NCBI GenBank assembly: GCA_903874275.1
Contig: CAIQRS010000109.1
Coordinates: 62,001 to 126,000, forward strand
Direction of reading: 5' to 3'
Origin: an uncultured Anaeromyxobacter sp.
GTDB taxonomy: Bacteria; Myxococcota; Myxococcia; Myxococcales; Anaeromyxobacteraceae
Length of the DNA: 64,000 nt
Below, piece after piece: positions 26,751-28,557 of the stretch. Made by a program: the position numbers and the translations under genes. Below the pieces are notes generated by a model, which did not search any database, was not told the DNA's origin, and saw only the letters and a program-made list of their open reading frames with translations. Positions within the stretch are counted from its first letter, which is position 1. Each line of letters begins with the position of its first letter.

Positions 26751-28334
26751 ATGAAGCGATCCATGGTGGTCCTGGCATTGTTCGTCGGCGCCTGCGGCTC
26801 TGCCCGAACGGAAAGTCCACCCAAGGCCGCGGCCCCGACCTTCGTCGAACTGGCGACGTTTTCCGGTGCGGTGGACCCGGTCAGCGGTGTCATGAGCATC
26901 CAGACGACGCCTAGCCCAGGGGTCAAGGCAGTTCCGTCAGTGACGTTGGTCGTCCCGGAGCCGAGCGGGGCTACCCTTTCCAACAACCCCGGGGGCCCGA
27001 CATGGACGAACACGACGGGCCACTGCAACAACCCCGCAGTGGCGAGCACTGGAGGGAGGGTGCGGGTCACGCTGGGCACCACGGACTACCCAGACTCGGG
27101 CAACACCTTCTTGACCGGGGTCTACGCCCAGATCACCAGCATGTCCCGTACCGGGAGCGAGAGCTGCAACAGCGTGCCCCCTCCGCCCGGTCTCACGGGC
27201 GACCCTGGCCTCGGGCTGTGGGACTTCCCGGGGGCCATCGCGAACGGTAACCGCGAGGCCACGTCGGACTGGTCGTTCGGGAGCCCGACCTTTTCCCGGT
27301 TCACGTTCAGCGGCCGAATCCTGGCCCAGGAGTTCAACATCTTCTCGGTCACGCCGGCCGGCTCCGAGCCCTTCATCCCCTCCTCGACGGCGACGCAGCG
27401 GTACAACACCACCATCGTCTTCGTCGGGTCGAACGCGGTGTACGCGAACAAGGATGCCGGCCTGACCTTCGTCGCCAGCGATGGAGCTGCCACGCCCGTG
27501 AACACCCTTCCGGCCAACGCGACGTCGCTCTCCTACGATGCCACCAGCGGTTTCATCTGGTTCACGACGAGCACGGCGGTGGGATGCGCATCCAGCAACG
27601 GGCTAACGGTCAGGAGCACGCCCTGGACCGGGGCGGGAGAGCCCAGGGCGATCGTGGCGGATCCGATCGTCCACACCCGGGCATGGTTCGTGGATTCCGA
27701 CCCGACCACCCCCAAGGTCGGAAGCGTCACGTGCACGGCGGGTCCGGGTGCCGCGACCCTGGGCGCGTCCTTCACGCCGGGGCAACCTGCCGACGTCGAT
27801 CGTGTCCCCTCGTTCGTCGCCGTCGGAACCGACGGTGGGTGGCCGGGGTTCCTCTACGTGACGAACCCGACCGTTTCCAAAGTCTTCGTGCACGCCGCGG
27901 ACGGGACCTACGACCACACGTGGTCGTTTGCAGCCGGGAGTTGCAGCAAGTTGATGAACATCATCGACGGCCCCGGCGGGAACCTTTGGCTCACCTCGCC
28001 GACTACCGGTGAGATCTGCAAATTGACGCCTGGCAGCACCGGGTTCATGACCTCCATGGGAAATGTTTCCGCCCCCCAGCAGACTGGGCCGATGGCCGTC
28101 GATTCCCTGGGAAACCTCTGGGCAATCTGGGGAACCGGCTCTGCCACTGCGAAGGTGGTTCGGATGGACGGTGTCTCGGAGGCTTTCACGGGATACTCGC
28201 TGGCGCCCAGCGCCTTCTCGACGACCACCTACAGCCTTGCGAGCGGTGGCGGAGCAATCTGGGCCACCAGCGTGGACTCCAATGCGTACCCCGGCTCCGG
28301 GGTTCGCCGGCTCGTCCTCCCGACATGGCCGTGA
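26751..28334 (+). CDS. Lipoprotein with NHL/Vgb-like beta-propeller
   Basis: The protein (527 aa from ATG 26751) has a lipoprotein signal with lipobox LFVGAC, Cys15 being the lipidation site. The second half has propeller-like repeats: NIIDGPGGNLWLTSPTTGEI and then MAVDSLGNLWAIWGTGSATA, matching the GxxGNLW blades of virginiamycin-lyase-like and NHL proteins. An earlier part contains Thr/Gly-rich beta sequence. It is probably anchored on a membrane facing the periplasm or surface. The start is supported by GGGGGCGAG upstream. It lies beside export genes and may bind polysaccharide; no enzyme function is claimed. Confidence 0.7.
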   Translation: MKRSMVVLALFVGACGSARTESPPKAAAPTFVELATFSGAVDPVSGVMSIQTTPSPGVKAVPSVTLVVPEPSGATLSNNPGGPTWTNTTGHCNNPAVASTGGRVRVTLGTTDYPDSGNTFLTGVYAQITSMSRTGSESCNSVPPPPGLTGDPGLGLWDFPGAIANGNREATSDWSFGSPTFSRFTFSGRILAQEFNIFSVTPAGSEPFIPSSTATQRYNTTIVFVGSNAVYANKDAGLTFVASDGAATPVNTLPANATSLSYDATSGFIWFTTSTAVGCASSNGLTVRSTPWTGAGEPRAIVADPIVHTRAWFVDSDPTTPKVGSVTCTAGPGAATLGASFTPGQPADVDRVPSFVAVGTDGGWPGFLYVTNPTVSKVFVHAADGTYDHTWSFAAGSCSKLMNIIDGPGGNLWLTSPTTGEICKLTPGSTGFMTSMGNVSAPQQTGPMAVDSLGNLWAIWGTGSATAKVVRMDGVSEAFTGYSLAPSAFSTTTYSLASGGGAIWATSVDSNAYPGSGVRRLVLPTWP

Positions 28335-28389: not shown

Positions 28390-28557
28390 ATGGTTTCCAA
28401 GGCAACGAAGGGCGACTCGAAGGATGTGCGAACGGGGGAGCCTGCCCAGCCGGCGCGCCGTCCCTACCTGCCCCCCCGTCTCGTCAAGAAGCGGGCGGTG
28501 TCCAGGGCCACGCTGTTCACGGGAAGTGGTCCGGACACCGGAGGCGTGGTGGGTTGA
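28390..28557 (+). CDS. Small peptide with lasso-type RiPP leader motif
   Basis: This 55-aa frame (ATG 28390; GTG 28381 would add three residues) has a basic, hydrophilic N-terminus, then YLPPRLVKKRAVSRAT, then FTGSGPDTGGVVG to the stop. The spacing Y-x2-P-x-L-x9-T is that of lasso-peptide leaders; the glycine usually found four residues after the leucine is arginine here. If the leader ended two residues after the motif start of Thr, the remaining core would be 13 residues with an Asp at position 7. No B, C or transporter gene of a lasso cluster is nearby. Peptides of this type are also found beside polysaccharide genes without known products. Coding status is likely but unproven. Confidence 0.55.
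   Translation: MVSKATKGDSKDVRTGEPAQPARRPYLPPRLVKKRAVSRATLFTGSGPDTGGVVG

Follow-up and report, generated by a model that had tools for sequence, protein, structure and literature searches.

Dispersed peptides with lasso-type leaders form a lipoprotein-paired family in Anaeromyxobacter relatives and are probably matured in trans

Introduction

The leader motif YxxPxL of lasso peptide precursors lies at positions −17 to −12, and nearly all reported precursors have a Thr at position −2 (PMC10368454). Certain lasso clusters also encode a kinase together with a nucleotidyltransferase; examples are bsf of Bradymonas sediminis (PMC10368454) and the paeninodin and pseudomycoidin clusters (PMC8498205), and a His/Walker Lys/Asp-Asp motif has been reported for lasso kinases (PMC9266682). 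The RRE-Finder survey describes lasso-like RREs that lie beside radical SAM enzymes without a lasso cyclase (PMC7470986). The peptide analyzed here is encoded in a window (the whole stretch of 64,000 nucleotides that was analyzed) on contig C109 of an Anaeromyxobacter genome of 285 contigs that is 98.9% complete (G000). The original prediction described an orphan lasso-leader-like peptide and offered two readings of it, a RiPP-like precursor made elsewhere or a peptide of the adjacent polysaccharide export locus.

Results

A conserved peptide family

The 55-aa frame in the window shows the predicted Y-x2-P-x-L-x9-T spacing (Table 1). In YLPPRLVKKRAVSRAT the pattern reads Y0-P3-L5-T15, with Arg where the leader Gly would stand, as had been noted, and because these positions equal the published −17 to −12 and Thr −2 (PMC10368454), the leader is lasso-type by its sequence. 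The motif by itself is weak evidence for the window peptide, being only mildly improbable, since the exact pattern Y..P.L.{9}T occurs once in the six frames of the window and on average 0.25 times in first-order simulated windows. The N-terminal part of the window copy is not conserved, its codon score is neutral, no enzyme genes lie near it, and the hairpin that follows its stop codon does not stand out clearly from shuffled sequences (z −1.4). In NCBIfam and Pfam scans no family covered the peptide; the NCBIfam precursor profiles, which had been suggested as a check, gave no match up to an E value of 10.

Table 1. Positions of the peptide gene, its predicted parts and the partner lipoprotein in the window
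Feature	Position	Strand	Remarks
Partner lipoprotein with lipobox	26751..28334	+	3' end 55 nt upstream of the peptide gene; C-terminal NHL/Vgb-like beta-propeller
Common N-terminal lipoprotein domain, window instance	26751..27326		
55-aa precursor-like peptide gene, orphan family copy	28390..28557	+	Encodes MVSKATKGDSKDVRTGEPAQPARRPYLPPRLVKKRAVSRATLFTGSGPDTGGVVG
Lasso-type RRE-binding leader motif (predicted)	28465..28512	+	YLPPRLVKKRAVSRAT; Y-17, P-14, L-12, T-2; spacing seen directly
Predicted core	28516..28554	+	FTGSGPDTGGVVG; cleavage two residues past Thr, placed by the lasso T(-2) rule

What raises the window motif above chance is a family of paralogues. A protein search of the same genome returned five further copies at E values of 5e-15 to 1e-12 and a sixth at 5e-5, and a DNA search returned five relatives with 77 to 86% matches. 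Forty related genomes were searched as well, and G001 contributed five copies, G003 two and G022 one, so that the family has 7 members in the window's own genome and 15 over the four genomes, all Anaeromyxobacter relatives. A profile search of 145 genomes from the order turned up no further confident member outside these four. One weak match, in G104 (E 4e-4), was rejected as chance; it falls in a frame of 300 aa that adjoins other genes or runs antisense to them, and it has no GG core.

The 15 copies can be aligned across the whole core and give the consensus Y-x-P-P-R-[IL]-x9-T-L-F-[TS]-G. Invariant in all of them are M1, Y26, P28, P29, R30, K33, R35, R39, A40, T41, L42, F43, G45, G51 and G52. 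Homologues in related genomes, which the original prediction had proposed to collect, therefore keep the Y, P and T of the motif, with I at the leader position of L in most copies. Core position 7 (D49) is D in some copies and N or S in others, and it is lost in the copy on C25.

Across 18 conserved codons pN/pS is 0.19, a figure biased down somewhat on the pN side by gathering the copies by similarity; differences by codon position number 235/143/616 and are mostly at third positions. Judged from these codons, the peptide family is under purifying selection. Synonymous differences from the window copy amount to 0.3 to 0.6 per site, so the copies are not recent duplicates. Taken together, the conserved family, the low pN/pS and the old divergence point to a window frame that is very probably translated.

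Pairing with lipoprotein genes

In gene calls made with a purpose-built codon model, whose boundaries are approximate, fourteen of the 15 copies have a lipoprotein gene on the same strand no more than 60 nt away. Ten copies precede the lipoprotein start at a near-constant gap of 49 to 51 nt; for the window, C122 and G022 copies the lipoprotein comes first and the peptide after. The lipoproteins have in common an N-terminal domain of ~190 aa that is absent from Pfam, and they differ in their C-terminal parts, which are NHL/Vgb-like propellers, RCC1 repeats or Ig-like domains. For the window lipoprotein, a model from a six-row alignment (pLDDT 60) resembles two kinds of PDB entry, streptogramin B lyase and NHL propellers; the single-sequence model has a pLDDT of 35 and the propeller is readable only with six rows. 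Confidence in the model is moderate. The streptogramin B lyase-like fold match is common to NHL propellers in general.

The N-terminal domain occurs at 11, 6, 3 and 1 places in the four peptide genomes and at one place in G051, where no peptide was seen. Over five genomes of the order it has 22 instances, joined to several kinds of repeat or propeller domain that are unrelated to one another. An AraC-type regulator-like gene adjoins three of the peptide-lipoprotein pairs (L037:15166-16191, L042:6268-7308 and L046:6944-7897), the first recognized by the Pfam Arabinose_bd domain and the other two by sequence likeness.

This pairing bears on the suggestion that the peptide belongs to the export locus and serves polysaccharide export, given its place beside Wza. 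A Wza-type gene (Poly_export/SLBB) does lie 1.4 kb from the window peptide, and the C25 locus also carries sugar-polymer-like genes. However, most copies (C10, C116, C122, C178 and G022) are away from export genes, and the beta-barrel-like and Wza genes adjacent to the window peptide are on the opposite strand. Across otherwise unrelated neighborhoods the constant neighbor is the lipoprotein family, not Wza/Wzz. We consider a role in export highly improbable.

Candidate maturation genes elsewhere in the genome

Lasso-B2-type matches above the cut-off lie on contigs C10, C178 and C25 of the window's own genome and not on C109, and the earlier statement that neither a lasso B protein nor a cyclase is nearby holds. 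On C178 a peptide copy is followed by genes for a lipoprotein, a radical SAM protein (PF04055, 66 bits), a B2-PqqD fusion, an NTP_transf_5 nucleotidyltransferase (127 bits) and an HprK-like protein. In the fusion, a B2 part (NF033537, 53.9 bits against a cut-off of 33) is joined to PqqD (PF05402), with the RRE C-terminal to B2; Cys, His and Asp candidates are retained, and the only PDB matches of the PqqD part are the lasso RREs TbiB1 and TfuB1. G022 has enzymes of the C178 type, in identical order, beside its peptide copy. The C25 peptide copy is surrounded by a pair of radical SAM genes, another B2-PqqD fusion and genes for an NTP_transf_5 and an HprK-like protein. On C10, PqqD and B2 are encoded separately, and these genes and one for an HprK-like protein lie 6 to 10 kb from two peptide copies. 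These C10 genes (L037:4203-5882) run consecutively as HprK-like, PqqD and lasso B2, without a cyclase or a recognizable precursor of their own.

The radical SAM protein has a CxxxCxxC motif and conserved C-terminal cysteines, and its nearest PDB entries are PqqE and SkfB. It matches the ScmF, mycofactocin maturase and PqqE profiles, all far below the curated cut-offs, and falls in no named NCBIfam maturase family. Most copies of the HprK-like kinase keep the His, the Walker Lys and the Asp-Asp.

Co-occurrence across genomes

Among 145 genomes of the order, radical SAM matches and confident peptide matches occur in exactly G000, G001, G003 and G022, and so do matches to the B2-PqqD profile, which in G003 cover the PqqD part only. 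Lasso B2 matches single out the same four of the 24 genomes in the family. Other members of G022's genus have neither the peptide nor the radical SAM protein nor B2-PqqD, and a search of the phylum for distant homologues of the fusion gave two weak PqqD matches only. Because three of the four genomes belong to one genus, the co-occurrence does not represent four independent events and counts for fewer than it looks. Contamination is argued against by C126 of G003, which has the same gene surroundings as the C178 locus. In the place of the C178 run, C126 carries no more than a WecA-like gene and a PqqD gene that stands alone (L094:8217-9984); loss or replacement of a cassette there is possible.

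The peptide therefore keeps company with distant lasso B2 and RRE genes, one of the associations that had been proposed for checking, and not with Wza/Wzz or, in its own genome, with a lasso cyclase. Of the two roles first offered, a RiPP-like precursor made elsewhere is the one that gains support, from the family, from the enzymes encoded in trans (C178, C25 and C10) and from co-occurrence in four genomes.

A different possibility is that the dispersed copies are unmatured, as relics of duplicated peptide-lipoprotein units or as short leader frames with a regulatory effect on the lipoprotein gene. The ten copies placed 49 to 51 nt before lipoprotein starts would suit such frames, and most copies have no enzymes nearby. 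Neither a relic nor a mere coupling frame would keep a pN/pS of 0.19 on the peptide, however, and the window, C122 and G022 copies come after the lipoprotein gene; the co-occurrence of the peptide with radical SAM and RRE genes also speaks against it. We judge this explanation unlikely.

Search for a lasso cyclase

No lasso cyclase (PF00733/NF033535) was detectable in the window's own genome, which gave short PP-loop matches to PF00733 only. These comprise one on C26 and six that we read, from their sequences, as QueC, MnmA, LarE, NadE, a ThiI-like protein and TilS. G001 likewise gave one short match. As a positive control, the same search detected the lasso cyclase of G003.

If the peptide were a true lasso, with a macrolactam between F1 and Asp7, its cyclase would have to have been missed by the assembly or to have diverged beyond recognition. 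The leader, B2, RRE, kinase and nucleotidyltransferase are indeed the lasso tool set, and the relative G003 has a canonical lasso locus with a cyclase. Against this stand the short matches in G000 and G001, from a search that did find the G003 enzyme, and the D, N or S at core position 7, which does not fit the proposal of an Asp ring acceptor there. A true lasso is, in our estimate, quite improbable, and with no cyclase detected, the mature product is probably not a lasso.

Three other loci in the related genomes carry lasso-type genes. The G003 lasso locus (L142:736-4500, contig C64) encodes an HprK-like kinase, a lasso cyclase, a PqqD-like protein and B2 and looks conventional; no precursor was identified in it. 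On C195 of the same genome (L143:3-3692), lasso-B2-type, AMP-binding and ketoreductase domains share one frame of >1,200 aa, which a PqqD-like gene adjoins. In G001 (C68, L145 at about 10890, minus strand), a lasso-like precursor frame that contains YESPSIERSEVAHETKAGLPVGLD lies beside PqqD, B2 and nucleotidyltransferase genes, and no cyclase was seen in the surrounding stretch.

Discussion

Set against what defines a lasso peptide, the family has the YxxPxL leader with Thr at −2, and it has an RRE (B1) and a B2 peptidase in trans, fused on C178 and C25 and separate on C10. It has no detectable macrolactam cyclase in the window's own genome, no conserved Asp/Glu at core position 7 to 9 and no match to a curated NCBIfam precursor profile. 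A lasso-like first stage of the pathway fits these results; the label of lasso peptide does not. In the C178 and G022 runs the precursor is encoded with a radical SAM protein and an RRE, as in radical SAM RiPPs. The likely explanation, in our view, is a RiPP-like precursor matured in trans by a lasso-type RRE/peptidase and a radical SAM protein, for use with the lipoproteins. The leader, YxPPR[IL]...T-2, would be bound by the lasso-type PqqD/RRE fused to the lasso-B2-type cysteine peptidase, the radical SAM protein with its extra C-terminal cysteines would modify the core, and the B2 part would cut after T-L. The HprK-like kinase and the nucleotidyltransferase belong to kinds that phosphorylate and decorate certain lasso peptides; here their target may be a Thr/Ser of F-[TS]-G-S-G-P. 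Because the scattered copies nearly all adjoin one lipoprotein family, the most likely role of the mature peptide is to act together with the partner lipoproteins, or upon them, at the cell surface. One point against this explanation is the near-invariance of the core, which would be unusual in a RiPP with antimicrobial activity.

More tentatively, the family may be a distinct RiPP class in which lasso-type recognition and leader removal are kept and radical SAM chemistry replaces cyclization. In this class a near-invariant core would come from numerous dispersed genes, and each gene would serve a single surface lipoprotein, to which the peptide would be a ligand, a cofactor or a covalent partner. 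If so, a radical SAM enzyme can take the place of the lasso cyclase downstream of the lasso leader-RRE-B2 module, and lasso-leader matches should not be taken as lasso peptides. A core that hardly varies among numerous loci with a separate lipoprotein each would point to a cellular role and not to warfare. Genome mining limited to gene neighborhoods would overlook precursors that sit alone.

The lasso clusters with a kinase and a nucleotidyltransferase are similar in their YxxPxL leader, T −2, lasso-type RRE, B2, HprK-like kinase and nucleotidyltransferase. Unlike them, the family described here has a radical SAM protein instead of a cyclase (C), an RRE that is C-terminal and not N-terminal to B2, dispersed precursors paired with lipoproteins, and a core whose acidic residue is not conserved. 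In SynChlorMet (TIGR04248-04251), GeoRSP, PQQ and mycofactocin, too, a PqqD-type partner accompanies the radical SAM protein, and SynChlorMet also has an HprK-like protein, but the radical SAM protein here scores far below the curated cut-offs of these systems. To our knowledge, neither a lasso B2 nor a lasso-type leader is a defining feature of any of the four. In the open-access literature we found no report of the gene set of B2 fusion, precursor family and lipoprotein pairing. The cases in the RRE-Finder survey differ in that the RREs are discrete and lack the peptidase and cyclase that would be required, and the available portion of that text describes no precursor family or lipoprotein pairing (PMC7470986). 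A lasso-like RRE with a radical SAM enzyme and no cyclase is nevertheless not without precedent, since that survey had already noticed such RREs (PMC7470986).
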